Positions 46,954-55,526 of a DNA stretch of 64,000 nucleotides are shown in pieces. Below the pieces are notes generated by a model. It was not told the DNA's origin. It searched no databases and was given only the letters and a program-made list of their open reading frames with translations. Each line of letters begins with the position of its first letter. The stretch's first letter is position 1. A program made the translations under genes and the position numbers. The stretch is from Selenomonas ruminantium subsp. lactilytica TAM6421 (lineage in GTDB: Bacteria > Bacillota > Negativicutes > Selenomonadales > Selenomonadaceae), in contig NC_017068.1 of the NCBI RefSeq assembly GCF_000284095.1, positions 1,488,001 to 1,552,000 on the forward strand, read 5' to 3'.

Positions 46954-46972
46954 AGTTAGGGAGGGCTTGCAA

Positions 46973-48298
46973 ATGAACGTGTGGAAAATAAGCCTGTCTG
47001 TGGCAGTGACCGCGTGTATTTTGGTCAGCGGAGCCGGTCTGCTGCATGCGGAACCTCTGGCTGTGGTACAGGAACATAATCTATGTGGTGTGATTGATGG
47101 AACGGGGAATTTTCGTGTGCCCCTTGGCTATGAGCGGATCGTGCCCTGGAAAAATGGTGGCCTGATCGTAAAGAAGGGGGAGTTCTGTGGTGTATTGGGA
47201 CAGGACGGCAAAGAGATTGTCCCAATACATTATATCAACATCCTCATTCCGGATCATGGGAAAACGTATCTGGTGGAAAACGATGAAGCTCATTGGGGGG
47301 CATACAGCAGCGAGGGGAAAGAGATCCTGCCGGTCTGCTATGATGAGATCACCGCGGTGGCGCAGGGAAATGACTACTTCGGTGTCCGCAAGGGAATTGA
47401 TTGGCAGTTTGTCCGCGCGGATGGTTCCCCAGTGAGCACAGAAGTATTTGCTTATATCGGCGAGTTCAGCGAAGGGATGACTGTCATAAAGCAACAGAAT
47501 AAGTGGGGCTATGCCAATACAAGAGGCGAAATCGTATTGAGCCCGCAATATGAGGGCGCCAAAAACTTTTCCGGCGACTTGGCTGCGGTGAAGAGCCAGG
47601 GAAAATGGGGTTTTATTGACCAGCAGGGCATCATGAAGATCCAGCCGCAATACAGTGAAGTGTATGCCGGTTTTGCCGAAGGGCTGGCGGCTGTGCAATC
47701 ACCGAAGGGCAAGGGCTATATAGACAAGCATGGCAATCTGTTGCTGCCGCGGGAGTCGCGTTATCTCGGCCAATTCAAAGAGGGCGTGGCAGAGATCCAT
47801 GAAGTGAAGAAAAAGCTGGATGTATGGCGGACATTGGCTTATGGAGCGAGCGTAGCCCTGGGCAGCATCGGTCTGCCACCGAAGAATGCCTTGAAGAGTA
47901 ACGAGAAGCGCGGTTATATCGATCGGCAGGGCAGGGAAGTCGTTCCCACCACTTATGATGAAGTCGTGCCTTTTTCTGATGGCATGGCACTGGTACGTAA
48001 AGATAAGAAATGGGGCGCTGTGAGCAGGGATGGCAAAATGAGCATCCGCCCGCAATACCTGGCTATGCGGCCTTTTGGTGAAGGCGTGGCGGCTGTGCGT
48101 ACAGACAGCAGCTGGCAGCTGATCGACAAGAACGGGAAACTGCTACGAAAACTGACGGCGGACGTCACAGATGCCGGTGTTATGTCCAAAGGTCTTTTGC
48201 CCGTTTGCCTTGGGGGAAAATGGGGTTATATGAACCAGGAGGGCGAAATGGTTATCGCACCTAATTTTGCACAGGCAGGCAGTTTCGTGGAGACATAA
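46973..48298 (+). CDS. Secreted WG-repeat protein
   Basis: 441 residues from ATG 46973 behind GGAGGGC. A signal peptide (ISLSVAVTACILVSGAGLLHA) is followed by about nine WG (KWG) repeats, each with the pattern ...KWGYANTRGEIVLSPQYEGAKNFSGDLAAVKSQG..., KWGFIDQQGIMKIQPQYSEVYAGFAEGLAAVQS, KRGYIDRQGREVVPTTYDEVVPFSDGMALVRKDK, KWGYMNQEGEMVIAPNF. The fold is a beta-propeller-like repeat of unknown ligand. Since it is exported, it may provide the extracellular sensing side of the operon, upstream of the MATE fusion gene, which begins 3 bases after its stop. Confidence 0.85.
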   Translation: MNVWKISLSVAVTACILVSGAGLLHAEPLAVVQEHNLCGVIDGTGNFRVPLGYERIVPWKNGGLIVKKGEFCGVLGQDGKEIVPIHYINILIPDHGKTYLVENDEAHWGAYSSEGKEILPVCYDEITAVAQGNDYFGVRKGIDWQFVRADGSPVSTEVFAYIGEFSEGMTVIKQQNKWGYANTRGEIVLSPQYEGAKNFSGDLAAVKSQGKWGFIDQQGIMKIQPQYSEVYAGFAEGLAAVQSPKGKGYIDKHGNLLLPRESRYLGQFKEGVAEIHEVKKKLDVWRTLAYGASVALGSIGLPPKNALKSNEKRGYIDRQGREVVPTTYDEVVPFSDGMALVRKDKKWGAVSRDGKMSIRPQYLAMRPFGEGVAAVRTDSSWQLIDKNGKLLRKLTADVTDAGVMSKGLLPVCLGGKWGYMNQEGEMVIAPNFAQAGSFVET

Positions 48299-48301
48299 GT
48301 T

Positions 48302-50044
48302 ATGCAGCGCAATGGGATATTGGTATGGCAGAAGTATCGGGAATATCTGGGTTCGACGATGGGGTTCATCGTATCGTTGTATCTGGCCGCTATCGTCGAT
48401 GGCATTCTGGTGAGCCAGCTGCTGGGACCGGCGGCCTTTGCGGCGATCAACCTGACTATGCCCGTTTACTATGCCCGGAATATTATCTTCTTTCTCTTTG
48501 TGGACGGAGGCGCAACCTTGGCCGCGCAGTTCATCGGTTCCCGGAACTGGGCTGCCTGTGACAAGGTATTCACGCTTTCCATTGGCTGGGGAACGATTGC
48601 GTTGTTGCTGTTGGGGCTTGGCGGCTCGATCCTTGCTGAACCCTTGGCGCATTGGCTGGCAGGGGATAGTTCTCTGTCTGGCATGGTGCAGGCTTATCTG
48701 GTGCCCTTGTGGCTCACGGGGCCATTGCTCATTCTGACCAATGGCGTAGCGGCGTATTTGCGGCTGGAAGGTGAACACAAGCTGGCTATTGCCATCCCCG
48801 TGGTGGCCAACCTCTGCAATCTGATCTTTGACTATATCTTTATGGCTGTACTGGACTGGGGGATTGCTGGTGCAGGCTGGGCTACAGGCGCAGGCTATGC
48901 CTGTTCGCTGTTGCTTTTGCTGCCCTATCGACAGCGGTCAGAGCGGGCATGGCATTTCGTATCCCTGACGGCTGCGGACAAGCTGCTTTTGCGGCAGCTG
49001 ATGGCTGTCGGTCTGCCCATGTCCATCATTCCCCTGGGGCTGGTAGTGCGTTATTTTGCCATCAACAGCATGGCCGTGGATTATATGGGGGATATGGGCG
49101 CTTTGACGGTGTCTTTGTGCAATGCTGCCCAGCTTTATGCCCTGATGTTTGCCGATGGTTCCAGCACGGCGCTGTCCAATGTCTGCGGCGCCCTTTATGG
49201 GGAAATGGACAAGGAGGGAACCATCCAGGTACTGCGCAGGGCTCTGCACCTGACTTTTGGCTTGTGTCTTTTGGCGTTTACCCTGATTGTTTGCTTTCCG
49301 GCAGAGTTTATGGGCTTTTATGGTGTGGCAACGGAACGCATTACGCCGGAACTCATCCTGGATCTGCGCATAAGCCTGCTTTATATGCTGGTGCTGGCAC
49401 ATGTGTTCATCCTGCGGGCGTTTTATCAAGCCACGCGGCAGGAGCGGGCGGCAACCGTGTTTTCCCTGCTGGAAGGCGTGGTGTTGGTGGTGCTCTTGTT
49501 CTATGGGATGTCAAGGTTCAGCTATACGCTGATGTGGAGTGCGCCGGCTTTGGCAGCATTGCTTTCTTTGGGCTGGCTGATCATTCATATGCGGCGTAAA
49601 GCCAGGGAACAGGGGATAAACAGTTTCCTGATGCTGCAGGCAGATACTGATGTTTGGGAAATAAGCATTCCGGCTACGGTGGAGGCAGCTACCCAGGCTG
49701 CGCAGGCTGCAGAGGATTTTTGCGGGCGGCATGCAGGTCTGTTGGATTCCCGTCAGGCCTATGCGGCCCAATTGACCATAGAGGAATTATGCGTCAACAT
49801 CGCGAATTATGACAATAGGGGTGAAAATGGCCATATCGATGTGTTCCTGCGTCTGCAGGAGCAGGCAATCCTGGTCAAGGTAAGGGATGCCGGCAAGCCC
49901 TTCAATCCAGTGAAGTTTCTGGATGAGCATGGTGAAGAATTTTCTGGTTTGTTGATGGTGCAGAAGCTTACTTCCAAGATCGAATATGTACGTATCTTAG
50001 GTTTCAATACCACTATTGTCACAATTGGAAAGCGAAGGGGATGA
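48302..50044 (+). CDS. MATE-type transporter fused to an RsbW-like ATPase domain
   Basis: 580 residues. Residues 1-440 form a 12-helix MATE/MOP transporter (LGSTMGFIVSLYLAAIVDGILVSQLLGPAAFAAINLTMPVYYA, FVDGGATLAAQFIGSRNW, INSMAVDYMGDMGALTVSLCNAAQLYALMFADGSSTALSNVCGALYGEMDKEGT). After the last membrane helix, residues 455-580 form an HATPase_c_2/anti-sigma-type domain: IPATVEAATQAAQAAEDFCGRH, the N-box AAQLTIEELCVNIANYDNRG, VKVRDAGKPFNPVKFL and GLLMVQKLTSKIEY. ATP and Mg-binding residues (EE..N, D.G.PFNP) are kept. An ATPase of the RsbW fold fused to a MATE transporter is unusual. The gene overlaps the RsbU-like gene, so they are coupled. Confidence 0.85.
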   Translation: MQRNGILVWQKYREYLGSTMGFIVSLYLAAIVDGILVSQLLGPAAFAAINLTMPVYYARNIIFFLFVDGGATLAAQFIGSRNWAACDKVFTLSIGWGTIALLLLGLGGSILAEPLAHWLAGDSSLSGMVQAYLVPLWLTGPLLILTNGVAAYLRLEGEHKLAIAIPVVANLCNLIFDYIFMAVLDWGIAGAGWATGAGYACSLLLLLPYRQRSERAWHFVSLTAADKLLLRQLMAVGLPMSIIPLGLVVRYFAINSMAVDYMGDMGALTVSLCNAAQLYALMFADGSSTALSNVCGALYGEMDKEGTIQVLRRALHLTFGLCLLAFTLIVCFPAEFMGFYGVATERITPELILDLRISLLYMLVLAHVFILRAFYQATRQERAATVFSLLEGVVLVVLLFYGMSRFSYTLMWSAPALAALLSLGWLIIHMRRKAREQGINSFLMLQADTDVWEISIPATVEAATQAAQAAEDFCGRHAGLLDSRQAYAAQLTIEELCVNIANYDNRGENGHIDVFLRLQEQAILVKVRDAGKPFNPVKFLDEHGEEFSGLLMVQKLTSKIEYVRILGFNTTIVTIGKRRG

Positions 50045-50049
50045 GATGG

Positions 50050-52218
50050 ATGAAAAGACGCAGTATCCGCCAGCAGGTACAGAGGCTGGTGCTTTTGTGC
50101 AGTGTAGTATCTGTACTGCTTCTGGGGGCCATGGCTTTGCTGGGCATGTTGGGCGCCCGGGAAAATTCCCTGCGTGATGGACGGGAAATGGGGGAAGAGG
50201 CGGCCCTTACGGTCAGCAATACATTGAAACAGAATGCTGAGGCACATCTGCAGGTTTTTGCCGGAGAAAAAGCCAGCCAGATTGCCCTGGAACTGCAGCG
50301 CATTGCTGACCGTACGGAACTCGTGAGACGGGAAATCAGCTGGCTGCGCAGTCATGCGGGAGAACTTACGCCGCGCAGCATCAGCGAACCGCGCCGGGAA
50401 AACGCCGGCAAACTGGCAGCGCAGCTGGAATATGCGGCAGATGTCAACAAGGAAGCACTAGCTGAGGAAATCGGCCTGACGGCTAATCTGCAGGATCTCA
50501 TGCTGCAGGTCGCGGCACAAAATGGCGAGGGAACGGCGATCAGCGTGGCCTCGAAGAATGGTTTCACGATTTCCGTGGATGCGGATTCCGCCGCCCGCTT
50601 TGCCAATGATGCGTCCAATACCCCCTTGACCTTCAATGCCACGAGCCGTCCCTGGTACCGGCTGGCGCAGAACCAGGGAAAGCTGACCTTTACGGAAGTC
50701 TATTCGGACAGTTTCAGCGGCGGCTTGCGTATTGCCTGCACCATGCCTTATGAGGTGAATGGCGAATTTGCCGGTGTGGTAGCCATGTCCACTTATCTGG
50801 AGAATATCAGTCAGCTGGTGCTCAATGCGCAGACCGACACATGTTTTGTATTGGATGATAATGGTCATATCCTGTTCTACAAGGATGAGAACAATATGAT
50901 CAAAGATGTGGATTCCAAGCAGGATCTGCGCACTTTGGATAATGCAGGGATGGCGGAAGCGATAAAGGCGATGACGCAGGGAGAAAAGGGCGCCCGCAAC
51001 GTGATCATCAATGGCAAGGAATATTATCTGGCTTTTGCTCCGATCAAGCAGGTGGGCTGGAGTTTTGCCGCTGCCATTGATGCGGATGAGGTATTGAAGA
51101 CCGAGGAACAGGCGCGGGAGGATGTGCTGGCGATTGCCCGGAAAAACGTAGGCAATATGAATTCCTATATGACGCTGATCATGCTGGCCATGGCGGTGGT
51201 GATCCTGGTGATCATTGCTGGTGTGACCTGGCAGGGCAGACGTATGGGGAACCGCTTCGTCCATCCCATCATGGAGCTTTCCGATGGTGTGCGGGAGATC
51301 GCCAGCGGCAATCTGGACAAGAAGCTGGAAATCAATACCGGTGATGAGATCGAGCATCTGTCCAAATGCTTCAACGCCATGACCGATGAATTGCAGTCGT
51401 ATATGAAAAATCTCACCAAAGTGACGGCAGAAAAAGAGCGCATTGCTACGGAGCTCAATGTAGCCACCAATATCCAGGAGAGCATGCTGCCGAATATCTT
51501 CCCGCCTTTCCCTGATCGGTCGGACTTTGATATTTACGCCACCATGCATGCGGCCAAGGAAGTGGGCGGTGATTTCTATGATTTCTACATGCTCGATGAG
51601 AATCATGTGGTCATCACTATCGCCGATGTGTCAGGCAAGGGAGTTCCCTCAGCGCTCTTCATGGTGATATCCAAGACCATCCTGAAAAACTTTGCCCTGA
51701 CCATGACGGGCGAAAATGACTTGGCGGCGGTGGTGTCCTGCACCAATGACCAGCTCTGTCAGAACAACGATGCCATGATGTTTGTTACGGCTTTTGTGGG
51801 GATGCTCGATGTCAAAACGGGGAAATTTGTCTATGTAAACGCGGGGCATAATCCCCCCTTGCTCTATCGTCATAAAGAGCAGAAATTCACCTATTTGCAG
51901 GTCAAACGGAATTTCGTCATGGGTGGCATGGAAGAGATGGATTATCAGGGACAGGAACTGATGCTGGAACCTGGTGATAAGTTGTTCCTGTACACGGATG
52001 GCGTCACGGAGGCATTAAGTGAAAAAGAGGAACTGTTTGGAGAGGAACGTCTGCAAACGTGTTTGAATGCGTCTGCTGCTAAACCCATCAAGGATCTGAT
52101 GGCTGATGTCAATAAATCTTTGTCGCAGCATGTCGGTCAGGCAGAACAGTCAGATGATATCACCATGCTGGCGCTGGTCTATAATGGTCAGACGGAATCG
52201 TTGCCGAAGGAGGTGTAA
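50050..52218 (+). CDS. RsbU-like PP2C phosphatase with Cache sensor and HAMP
   Basis: 722 residues from ATG 50050; AAGGGG is well spaced for it, whereas ATG 50041 abuts that site. A TM helix (residues 12-34), a periplasmic double Cache domain (about 40-365; SRPWYRLAQNQGKLTFTEVYSDSFSGGLRIACTMPYEVNGEFAGVVAMSTYLENIS), a second TM helix (YMTLIMLAMAVVILVIIAGV), a HAMP domain (HPIMELSDGVREIASGNLDKKLEINTGDEIEHLSKCFNAM) and a PP2C-like SpoIIE domain (IQESMLPN, AKEVGGDFYDFYMLD, IADVSGKGVPSALFMV, YVNAGHNPP, LFLYTDGVTEALSEKEELFG, QSDDITMLALVY). It should dephosphorylate the STAS protein encoded downstream upon an external signal. Confidence 0.92.
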   Translation: MKRRSIRQQVQRLVLLCSVVSVLLLGAMALLGMLGARENSLRDGREMGEEAALTVSNTLKQNAEAHLQVFAGEKASQIALELQRIADRTELVRREISWLRSHAGELTPRSISEPRRENAGKLAAQLEYAADVNKEALAEEIGLTANLQDLMLQVAAQNGEGTAISVASKNGFTISVDADSAARFANDASNTPLTFNATSRPWYRLAQNQGKLTFTEVYSDSFSGGLRIACTMPYEVNGEFAGVVAMSTYLENISQLVLNAQTDTCFVLDDNGHILFYKDENNMIKDVDSKQDLRTLDNAGMAEAIKAMTQGEKGARNVIINGKEYYLAFAPIKQVGWSFAAAIDADEVLKTEEQAREDVLAIARKNVGNMNSYMTLIMLAMAVVILVIIAGVTWQGRRMGNRFVHPIMELSDGVREIASGNLDKKLEINTGDEIEHLSKCFNAMTDELQSYMKNLTKVTAEKERIATELNVATNIQESMLPNIFPPFPDRSDFDIYATMHAAKEVGGDFYDFYMLDENHVVITIADVSGKGVPSALFMVISKTILKNFALTMTGENDLAAVVSCTNDQLCQNNDAMMFVTAFVGMLDVKTGKFVYVNAGHNPPLLYRHKEQKFTYLQVKRNFVMGGMEEMDYQGQELMLEPGDKLFLYTDGVTEALSEKEELFGEERLQTCLNASAAKPIKDLMADVNKSLSQHVGQAEQSDDITMLALVYNGQTESLPKEV

Positions 52219-52220
52219 GC

Positions 52221-52637
52221 ATGTCACAAACAAGGGAGATCAGCCTTGACGCTACCGTAGAGAATCTGCCCCAGGTCAATGCATTCGTGGAAACCTTTTT
52301 GATTGAACTGTCCGCTGCACCGAAAGCACAGATGCAGATCGAACTGGCGGTAGAGGAAATTTTTGTCAACATTGCCCATTATGCCTATGGCGGGCAGGTC
52401 GGGCAGGCTGTTGTGCAAGGGAAGGTCTTAAGTGAGCCGGCAGGGCTGGAACTCGTTTTTATCGATCAGGGCCAGCCCTATGATCCCCTGGCCCGGGAAG
52501 AACCGGACATCGATCAGTGCGTAGAGGAGCGAGCCGTGGGCGGGCTGGGAATCTATCTGGTGAAGAAAAACATGGATGAAGTCCATTATGATTATCAACA
52601 GGGGAAAAACATTCTCACTTTGCGGAAGTATTTTTAG
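52221..52637 (+). CDS. RsbW-like anti-sigma/serine kinase domain protein
   Basis: 138 residues, ATG 52221 behind GGAGGTG. A stand-alone HATPase_c_2 domain: NLPQVNAFVETFLIELSAAPKAQMQIELAVEEIFVNIAHYAYG (N-box), GLELVFIDQGQPYDPLAREEPD, and the G-box VGGLGIYLVKKNMDEVHYDYQQGKNILTLRKYF. All ATP-binding motifs are intact. It would phosphorylate the STAS protein at the switch serine and hold a target protein. No sigma factor gene is adjacent, so its target is open. Confidence 0.9.
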   Translation: MSQTREISLDATVENLPQVNAFVETFLIELSAAPKAQMQIELAVEEIFVNIAHYAYGGQVGQAVVQGKVLSEPAGLELVFIDQGQPYDPLAREEPDIDQCVEERAVGGLGIYLVKKNMDEVHYDYQQGKNILTLRKYF

Positions 52638-52714
52638 CAGGAATTTTCTGGCGAAAGGCGAAATTAAGATAAATAGTAGTTAATATCAGCATCCACAGTA
52701 AGAGGGGTGTGTTT

Positions 52715-54586
52715 ATGGAATTGCCAAGAATGCATGTCACAGACTTGCCGGCAGCTGAGCGCAATGTGCTCGAACAGCTTTATGGCGGGCAGATGACGGA
52801 GGATCAGGGATACTCGCCAAACCATATCGTCTATGTGCGGGAGCTTTCCGCAGTGGAGAAGTCCCTGTTCAGCCATACGTTGACCATACAGCCTGTAGGC
52901 GCCATCCTGCAGAATCTCTATAAATTGAAAGGCAGACTCTCGCCGGCCCGCTTTACCCGGGCGGTGAATCAGATGACGATGAAGGAAGATGCCCTGCGGC
53001 TGAATTACTGTGCAGTTGGCGGGCGGCTGCTGGCGGTGGTCCTGAAGGAACGACAGCAGAATACCGCCGTGATTTTCCGCAATATCGAAGGGGTAGATGG
53101 TGAGGAACTGGATGCCACCTTGCGGCGGATCATGGATGCTGATCTGCGTCAGGGGTTTGACAGCCGCAATGGCTGTCTCGTGCGTTTTTCCGTCTTCCAT
53201 ACCAATCAGGATGAATACGCTGTGCTGGTGACGGCGGTACAGGCGGTGCTGACCAATTTCGATGTGCGGCAGGTCTTTGCTTTGGCGATGGATCTGCCTT
53301 GGCAGGAAAGTCCGGTGCAGATGATAGCGTCACAGCCGTCATTGGGTACTGCCGCGACTTCCGTGCGGGATTATTGGAGCAGGATACTGGACCATTTTCC
53401 CCGCCATTGTCAGATCCCTAAATATATGCCAGGGGGTGGCCGTATCCATAAGCAACGGGCTTATATAGCCCGCGTGCCGGCTAATATCCTGTCGGATCTG
53501 CGCTTGCGGGCTAAATCCAATAAACGTATGTTATTGTCCATTTTGCAGACAGCCTGGGGCTTTTTGCTGCAGATGGAAAACAAATGCCAGGATGTGGGCT
53601 ATTGCCTGCTGGTACCCCGCCGTGAACGGGCAGATTCGAGCCTGGGCAATATTCCCAGCCTGGTGCCGGTCCGTTTGCAGGTGCAGGGAAAGCCCACCGT
53701 ACAGGAAATGGTGACCAAGGCATTCCAGCAATTTGTCATCTCTCAGCCTTATGCCAATATGGGGAGGGAGGATATTGAGGCAATCATTGGACAGGAAAAT
53801 AAGGCGTTCGATCATTTCCTGAATTTCTGCGACTTTTTCTGTGAGTCCAGATCCTTTGGGGAAGTGACTGGCGCTCCTACGGGCAAGCTGATCATGCAGA
53901 ATTCCTGGGATGGCCGTGACAGCCGGTTAGGTCTTAGTTTCCGGTTGGAGAATCATCAGCTGATTTTCACCATGCTCTATAATGAAGGGGATTTTCCGGG
54001 CAGGAATATGGAACTGTTGGTGCATGAATACCTGCTGGTATTGCAGCAGATGCTGACCGATTGGAATGCACCTTATCCTGATTTCATGCAGCACCTGCAG
54101 CAGCGGCAGCAGGTGGAAAATGATGCCTCAGGCAATAGCGAGGCTGAAAACCGGGCTGTTATGCAGGATTATCTGTCCCGTCTCACGCTTTTGCAGGAAT
54201 GTGATCATGGCATCATCCAGCTCTTTATGGATCATGCTCACCTGGTCATGCTTTTTGAGGGAGACCGTATTGCGGAAGAGCAGATTGAGGAAAACCTCGT
54301 CTTTCTGGTATCCGGACGGGTGGCCCGCAGCATCGAAACCGGGGATGGCTGGTATTATACGCTGGATATACAGAAGGAAAACAGTTGGCTTAATGAAACG
54401 GTATTGCTGCCCGAGCGGAAAAGCCGCATGGCAGCAGAAGTGCTGACGGAACAGGCTGTCATTCTGACTGTGGCACTGCCTTCAGCGGCCTTGATTTTGG
54501 AAAAATCCCCGCTTTTTGCGAAAAATATCATCAAACACATCAGTAAACAGATGGAAAAATATCAGCGCTTATGGATTCAATCTTAA
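52715..54586 (+). CDS. Condensation-domain-like protein with C-terminal cNMP-binding-like domain
   Basis: 623 residues from ATG 52715 (AGAGGGG upstream). Residues 20-440 follow the NRPS condensation domain: VEKSLFSHTLTIQPVGAILQNLYKLKGRLSPARFTRAVNQMTMKEDALRLNYC, DADLRQGFDSRNGCLVRFSVFHTNQDEYAVLVTAVQAVLTNFDVRQVFALAMDL, YWSRILDHFP, IQKRMLLSILQTAWGFLLQ-like region, GYCLLVPRRERADSSLGNIPSLVPVRLQVQGKPTVQEMV, GLSFRLENHQLIFTMLYNEGDF. The catalytic HHxxxDG position reads VQAVLTNFD: both histidines are gone. Residues 480-610 resemble a Crp-type cNMP-binding barrel plus helix (LQECDHGIIQLFMDHAHLVMLFEGDRIAEEQIEENLVFLVSGRVARSIETGDGWYYTLDIQKENSWLNETVLLPERKSRMAAEVLTEQAVILTVALPSAALILEKSPLFAKNIIKHISKQM). Likely a non-catalytic regulator or effector binding protein. 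Confidence 0.75.
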   Translation: MELPRMHVTDLPAAERNVLEQLYGGQMTEDQGYSPNHIVYVRELSAVEKSLFSHTLTIQPVGAILQNLYKLKGRLSPARFTRAVNQMTMKEDALRLNYCAVGGRLLAVVLKERQQNTAVIFRNIEGVDGEELDATLRRIMDADLRQGFDSRNGCLVRFSVFHTNQDEYAVLVTAVQAVLTNFDVRQVFALAMDLPWQESPVQMIASQPSLGTAATSVRDYWSRILDHFPRHCQIPKYMPGGGRIHKQRAYIARVPANILSDLRLRAKSNKRMLLSILQTAWGFLLQMENKCQDVGYCLLVPRRERADSSLGNIPSLVPVRLQVQGKPTVQEMVTKAFQQFVISQPYANMGREDIEAIIGQENKAFDHFLNFCDFFCESRSFGEVTGAPTGKLIMQNSWDGRDSRLGLSFRLENHQLIFTMLYNEGDFPGRNMELLVHEYLLVLQQMLTDWNAPYPDFMQHLQQRQQVENDASGNSEAENRAVMQDYLSRLTLLQECDHGIIQLFMDHAHLVMLFEGDRIAEEQIEENLVFLVSGRVARSIETGDGWYYTLDIQKENSWLNETVLLPERKSRMAAEVLTEQAVILTVALPSAALILEKSPLFAKNIIKHISKQMEKYQRLWIQS

Positions 54587-54602
54587 GAGGAGGCACACTG
54601 AA

Positions 54603-54902
54603 ATGGAAATCAAAAAAGAACAAGCAGGCACGGCTTTGACTATTATTTTGACTGGTCGTTTGGACGCAGTTTCGGCGCCGGAACTGGATAAAGTCGTGCA
54701 GAATGAGTTGGCGGGCATCACGGAACTGACATTTGATTTCAAGGAACTCGTATATGTGGCATCGGCAGGCCTGCGGGTACTGCTGCTGGCACAGAAGCGC
54801 ATGAAGAAGCAGGGAACGATGAAGCTTATCCATGTGAATCCCGATGTGAAGGATGTGCTGGAAATGACAGGCTTTATCGATTTTCTGACCATCGAGGAAT
54901 GA
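54603..54902 (+). CDS. STAS-domain anti-anti-sigma factor
   Basis: 99 residues, ATG 54603 behind AAGAGGAGG. The single STAS domain reads GTALTIILTGRLDAVSAPELDKVVQNELAGITELTFDFKELVYVASAGLRVLLLAQKRMKKQGTMKLIHVNPDVKDVLEMTGFIDFLTIEE. The phospho-acceptor serine of this family is kept in ASAGLR. It is the natural substrate of the RsbW-like kinases and the RsbU-like phosphatase encoded just upstream, and so the switch component of the pathway. It follows the condensation-like gene after 16 bases. Confidence 0.93.
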   Translation: MEIKKEQAGTALTIILTGRLDAVSAPELDKVVQNELAGITELTFDFKELVYVASAGLRVLLLAQKRMKKQGTMKLIHVNPDVKDVLEMTGFIDFLTIEE

Positions 54903-54905
54903 AAT

Positions 54906-55526
54906 ATGCAGACGCAAAAGATCACGATAAACAGCAATGGAAATGGAATGCCCTGGGCATTGGATATGGTGGAGGATTTTAGCCGGGATATGGGCTTTGA
55001 TGAGCGCAGTGCCCGGCGCACCCGCCTGCTGGCGGAGGAAACCATGAGCATGGTGCGTGCCATCGTGGGGGAGTTCGTGGCTGAATTCTGGATGGAGAGC
55101 AAACCAGAGTGCAGCTGCATCCTTCATTTGCACGCAGATTCGCTGATGAATTTTGAGAAGAAACAGGAGCTCATTGAGACCTCGTCACGGCAGCGCAATG
55201 AGGCTTCTGTGGGCATCATGGGCAAGATACAGGACTTCATCGAGGACAGTCTCTACAGTATGGAGTACAGCCAGCGGGTAACCATGGGCGGATCAGAAAT
55301 CATGAGTCTGGGTGGTGTGGCCCTGGCGATGGATGGCTATATGTGGTCCCTGGATAAGTACCGGGAAGATGTGGAACAGAAAAGCGATGAGGAAGCAGCA
55401 ATGGACGCCGCTCTTGAGGAATTGGAAAAATCCATTGTCGCCAATATCGCCGATGATATCCGGGTGTATGTCAAGGGCAATACCATTGAAATGATCATTG
55501 AAAAAAATTTTCCTGTGATACCTTAG
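54906..55526 (+). CDS. RsbW-like ATPase-fold protein with an insert
   Basis: 206 residues, ATG 54906, only 3 bases after the STAS gene (GAGGAATGAAAT upstream). N-terminal MPWALDMVEDFSRDMGFDERSARRTRLLAEETMSMVRAIVGEFVAEFWMESKPECSCILHLHAD is a diverged HATPase_c_2 N-box (AEET..M in place of EE..N), followed by a region of unknown structure (LMNFEKKQELIETSSRQRNEASVGIMGKIQDFIEDSLYSMEYSQRVT) and a C-terminal DDIRVYVKGNTIEMIIEKNFPVIP. The ATP-binding N-box asparagine is missing, so it may be a non-kinase binding partner for STAS proteins. Last gene of the operon; a terminator follows. Confidence 0.7.
   Translation: MQTQKITINSNGNGMPWALDMVEDFSRDMGFDERSARRTRLLAEETMSMVRAIVGEFVAEFWMESKPECSCILHLHADSLMNFEKKQELIETSSRQRNEASVGIMGKIQDFIEDSLYSMEYSQRVTMGGSEIMSLGGVALAMDGYMWSLDKYREDVEQKSDEEAAMDAALEELEKSIVANIADDIRVYVKGNTIEMIIEKNFPVIP

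Follow-up and report, generated by a model that had tools for sequence, protein, structure and literature searches.

A MATE exporter with an RsbW-like tail as a possible output of a partner switch in Selenomonas ruminantium

Introduction

What does a membrane exporter do with a domain from the anti-sigma factor toolkit? The known targets of partner switches are sigma factors and a few enzymes. In a 64,000-nucleotide stretch of the genome of Selenomonas ruminantium subsp. lactilytica TAM6421 (hereafter, the window), an original prediction made from the DNA letters alone placed an RsbW-like ATPase domain at the C-terminus of a MATE transporter, and proposed that such a serine kinase or anti-sigma fold would link transport directly to partner switching. 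If this is true, partner switches would have a target of a new kind, a transporter serving as their direct output, and rumen bacteria would have a post-translational means of gating the export of small molecules; we found no description of an exporter in this role in the open-licence literature. The questions raised by the locus are whether the fusion is genuine, and whether its tail is a kinase or a receptor.

Results

The fusion gene and the fold of its tail

The forward-strand open reading frame at 48302-50044 is uninterrupted and encodes 580 amino acids, comprising a MATE exporter part (48302-49633, residues 1-444) and a C-terminal tail (49634-50041, residues 445-580) with a HATPase_c_2 domain of the RsbW/SpoIIAB type. 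Pfam matched MatE in two stretches of the protein (73.7 bits against a cut-off of 24.9), and hydropathy analysis of the MATE part revealed 13 hydrophobic peaks, one of them probably split, with a basic stretch beyond the last, where a MATE exporter would be expected to have twelve membrane helices and an internal C-terminus; the scores against the NCBIfam models TIGR00797 and FepA fell below their cut-offs. The protein shares its MATE membrane part with the exporters of those families, but carries the HATPase tail in addition. HATPase_c_2 was matched at residues 456-567 of the full protein (E = 6.6e-13, 49.2 bits against a cut-off of 27.4), and with E = 2.6e-14 when the tail was searched alone. 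The intact N-box (EELCVNIANY, residues 494-503) and D-x-G-x-PFNP motif (D529-P536) were both located where they had been predicted.

An AlphaFold2 model of the tail, aligned with five relatives (pLDDT 79, pTM 0.78), showed a HATPase fold, and no different fold emerged; its best PDB matches by Foldseek were SpoIIAB complexed with SpoIIAA (E = 6e-7) and RsbW complexed with RsbV (E = 1.3e-6). Furthermore, a profile built from the tails recovered RsbW at the sequence level; the tail itself scored 16.1 bits with the RsbW equivalog NF003144, far short of the 145 required.

The gene that follows starts at 50041, in a 4-base (ATGA) overlap with the fusion gene. Orthologues at 63-75% identity, found in six other Selenomonas genomes including that of ATCC 12561, the type strain of S. 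ruminantium, all encode the fusion as a single open reading frame, as do many divergent paralogues. The fusion is thus neither an assembly artefact nor the product of a missed stop, the latter having already been discounted in the original prediction on account of the overlap. Three bases upstream of the fusion gene lies a gene for a WG-repeat protein (46967-48298), a search with which yielded no relative in the orthologous loci.

Nucleotide site of the tail

We compared 70 HATPase domains at six site residues (N-box Glu and Asn, G1 Asp and Gly, and both G2 Gly). All six were intact in none of 34 MATE tails, compared with 16 of 18 stand-alone HATPases and all 11 of those linked to SpoIIE. The tail in the window retains five of the six, including the N-box Glu/Asn and G1 Asp/Gly pairs; it has lost the first G2 Gly and its lid is short, the G2 box reading FSGLLMVQKL as compared with GGLGIYLVKK in the neighbouring HATPase encoded at 52221. 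The retained pairs, which might allow weak ATP binding or kinase activity, are not kept throughout the MATE-tail family, and in orthologues at 63-64% identity the N-box Asn has been replaced by Val. Given the missing G2 Gly, the short lid, the absence of any complete site among the 34 tails and the loss of the N-box Asn in those orthologues, a serine kinase role for the tail appears doubtful.

The tail nevertheless bears marks of constraint. Its dN/dS was approximately 0.09-0.23 where estimable, against 0.05-0.17 for the MATE part, values that are reliable for close pairs only since synonymous sites are near saturation in many others. An Arg preceding the G1 Asp was found in 32 of 34 MATE tails, compared with 2 of 29 HATPases that stand alone or are linked to SpoIIE, and constitutes a signature of the MATE tails. 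Decay of the site, purifying selection and this Arg signature together suggest that a binding role has been kept while catalysis was relaxed. At the two ends of the range, the tails of L032 and L033 are strongly reduced, and that of L078 is the least degenerate, with nearly canonical boxes and a full G2 box (IGGLGIYLVKK); no separate kinase was found adjoining L078.

Operon and genome context

The fusion gene belongs to a forward-strand operon in which genes for a phosphatase, a kinase and a STAS protein are encoded together (50041-54902). Neighbouring genes overlap or lie no more than 16 bases apart, save for a gap of 71 bases ahead of the condensation gene. The order, also found in the orthologous locus L025 (genome G004), is MATE-HATPase, dCache-HAMP-SpoIIE phosphatase, complete HATPase, condensation-like protein, STAS protein and a 206-amino-acid protein. 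The phosphatase, of the PP2C type (50041-52218; SpoIIE E = 3.3e-47, dCache_1 E = 1.7e-16, HAMP E = 4.1e-10), is the presumed sensor of the switch; its best NCBIfam match was SiaA, below the cut-off. Its dCache domain keeps the R-x-W-Y part, and is missing the Asp, of the known amino-acid-binding motif, so that to name a carboxylate as the ligand would be a guess. Two genes downstream of MATE-HATPase, the stand-alone HATPase_c_2 protein (52221-52637; Pfam E = 4.4e-22) has complete N, G1 and G2 boxes with all six site residues, and is the presumed STAS kinase.

The condensation-domain protein (52709-54586; Pfam Condensation E = 9.5e-24) lacks HHxxxDG, having VQAVLTNFD instead, and its C-terminus gave a weak match resembling cNMP-binding domains (cNMP_binding E = 0.1, below the cut-off). 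The STAS protein (54603-54902; STAS E = 1.2e-12, TIGR00377 above the cut-off) is of the RsbV/SpoIIAA type, and the phosphorylatable Ser position within its VASAGLR motif was occupied by Ser in every STAS domain aligned. The last gene (54906-55526) encodes the 206-amino-acid protein, which matched no Pfam family; from its low-confidence model (pLDDT 51), the best Foldseek matches of which were SpoIIAB/RsbW with none below E = 0.001, it may represent a third HATPase fold, highly diverged from the SpoIIAB type and devoid of nucleotide motifs.

Across the whole source genome, only two HATPase_c_2 domains scored above the cut-off, both within this operon, and the nearest of five Sigma70_r2 proteins was encoded approximately 395 kb away. 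As sigma factor genes are absent for about 390 kb around, an anti-sigma role is not supported by the surroundings. Of the original prediction, the fold of the RsbW type, the reality of the fusion and a link between transport and partner switching are supported; its suggestion of a kinase is doubtful.

Distribution, origin and linkage of fused MATEs

The two parts are not always separate genes in relatives: the survey of MATE proteins with this tail found the fusion to be conserved. The 34 fused genes examined come from Selenomonas and its family and from three other families, with an eroded form in a further, fifth family (L033). In an even sample of the phylum, 10 of 398 genomes, spread over four families, encode MATE-HATPase (G000, G003, G005, G370, G412, G074, G191, G199, G369 and G300); long frames in G434 and G361 that the tail profile also matched were rejected as fused MATEs, being SpoIIE-HATPase proteins. 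A contig scan with the single fusion protein as query gave no matches, and the same scan with an alignment gave only five loci, all from S. ruminantium; the plasmid search matched plain MATEs and no fused ones.

In a tree of the HATPase domains, the MATE tails required only 2 label changes, compared with 23.7 in shuffles, and separated from the stand-alone kinases that their own operons encode. The tree is built on 134 columns and many of its forks are open, so that a single origin of the MATE tails is likely rather than proven. That the tail is a recent duplicate of the 52221 kinase was rejected, as the two fall into separate supported groups, albeit from few columns.

Of 35 fused MATEs, 28 had a SpoIIE or STAS gene within approximately 8 kb, as against 0 of 20 plain MATEs. 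The contrast is large, and it was counted with purpose-built profiles over loci that are not independent (orthologues counted separately, a few loci cut by contig ends), with plain MATEs drawn nearly all from fused-MATE genomes and the tailless L080 left out. The remaining seven fused loci yielded neither a SpoIIE nor a STAS gene; some lie at contig ends and others beside ATP-grasp or unrelated genes. NRPS linkage was rejected as specific to fused MATEs, since 8 of the 20 plain MATE loci also had a neighbour matching the enzyme profiles. Separately, a plain, tailless MATE of approximately 445 amino acids adjoins an NRPS-like AMP-binding/condensation gene of approximately 1030-1070 amino acids (2486 in L107) at L096 (4830-7940), L099, L100, L103, L104, L105 and L107, the source genome being among those with such a pair.

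STAS-enzyme fusions in related loci

At several related loci the STAS domain is itself part of an enzyme. A STAS-condensation fusion adjoins the fused MATE at L041, L044, L074, L081 and L083-L086, and a fusion of STAS with an APH-like kinase (STAS-APH) does so at L034, L042 and L043; at L034, L081, L085 and L086 the STAS-enzyme gene overlaps that of the fused MATE by 4 bases. The STAS-condensation proteins of relatives keep a YHxxxDG motif. Other biosynthetic genes are found close by, with NRPS modules at L044 and L043, a glycosyltransferase-GH3 at L034 and L042, GH3 with ATP-grasp at L079, and ATP-grasp alone at L031 and L039; a hidden STAS domain was looked for in the ATP-grasp and other neighbours and was not found. 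At L147 (7038-8621), STAS, APH and HATPase are joined in one chain with an intact nucleotide site, an arrangement that indirectly supports, as a Rosetta-stone fusion, the idea that STAS-enzymes and HATPase domains make contact.

Discussion

We propose, with a probability of about 0.55, that the operon encodes a partner switch with the exporter as its output, the tail being a largely non-catalytic, pseudokinase-like STAS receptor with a degenerate G2 box. The membrane phosphatase (50041), with its dCache sensor outside and its SpoIIE/PP2C domain inside, and the cytoplasmic kinase (52221) would together set the phosphorylation of the 54603 STAS protein. In its dephosphorylated form this protein would bind the HATPase tail, and binding would alter or localise export of the substrate, presumably a small molecule; the tail would thus serve mainly as a binding module, and not as the working kinase of the switch.

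SpoIIAB/SpoIIAA and SiaABCD served as the models for this proposed mechanism. The Bacillus systems SpoIIAB/SpoIIAA and RsbW/RsbV likewise combine a HATPase fold, a STAS protein with a conserved Ser and a SpoIIE-type phosphatase; unlike them, the present operon has no sigma factor nearby, and one of its HATPases, with a degenerate G2 box, forms the tail of an exporter. In SiaABCD of Pseudomonas aeruginosa, a small partner, its state determined by a PP2C phosphatase together with a kinase, contacts an enzyme and so acts on it (PMC7647112, PMC8457831). The two systems have in common a membrane PP2C phosphatase, a kinase, a phosphorylated partner and a non-sigma output reached by direct contact (here inferred), whereas the output there is a diguanylate cyclase and here would be an exporter. 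SLC26/SulP transporters bear a cytoplasmic STAS domain (PMC8256260) and are also secondary transporters with a domain of the STAS/anti-sigma toolkit; the present protein is their mirror image, with the HATPase partner as its tail and a MATE as its transporter.

Were the tail instead an active serine kinase, the substrate- or ion-bound state of the exporter would control STAS phosphorylation, making the exporter the input sensor of the switch. The intact N-box and G1 pairs in the window, and the nearly canonical L078 without a kinase found beside it, are in keeping with such a role, which we nevertheless consider unlikely given the broken G2 box and short lid, the lack of a six-residue site in any MATE tail and the complete kinase encoded in the same operon. 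The decay of the site across the family, along with the strongly reduced tails of L032 and L033, might mark the tail as a remnant, or as a domain that serves only folding or dimerisation and has no signalling role; purifying selection similar in strength to that on the MATE part, the Arg signature and the specific linkage of fused MATEs to SpoIIE/STAS genes make this improbable.

The enzyme fusions bear on what the contact is for. Because the STAS partner is part of an enzyme in related loci, this contact could also recruit the producing enzyme to the exporter, and MATE-HATPase with STAS-condensation or STAS-APH may form phosphorylation-controlled enzyme-exporter complexes, in which the anti-sigma/anti-anti-sigma contact acts as a plug coupling synthesis to export; we advance this extension only tentatively. 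A pure docking contact, with no switching, would hold biosynthetic enzymes on the exporter for hand-over of the product, as the adjoining STAS-enzymes and the nearby NRPS, GH3 or ATP-grasp genes would allow. We give this reading little credence: the usual presence of SpoIIE phosphatases, together with conservation of the STAS Ser, speaks for regulation. In the window the STAS protein is free-standing and the catalytic motif is missing from the condensation protein, and NRPS genes adjoin plain MATEs as well. The 54603 STAS protein could also act only on the condensation protein or the 54906 protein, which would count against the receptor model.

Under that receptor model, the tail and the STAS protein form a concrete, testable pair, and the MATE-HATPase signature could flag uncharacterised small-molecule clusters. 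The source genome encodes further STAS proteins outside the operon. One is a STAS-APH-like phosphotransferase (L172, 1483-2688; genome G000, contig C1, at approximately 98.5 kb), beside an RpiR-type regulator and a NanE-like gene and with no MATE or HATPase in the surrounding 3.3 kb; another is a methyltransferase-like protein with a C-terminal STAS domain (L174, 1513-2745; small contig C8), of which a shortened copy lies on C10 (L175). Either the tail or the kinase could have these as additional ligands.
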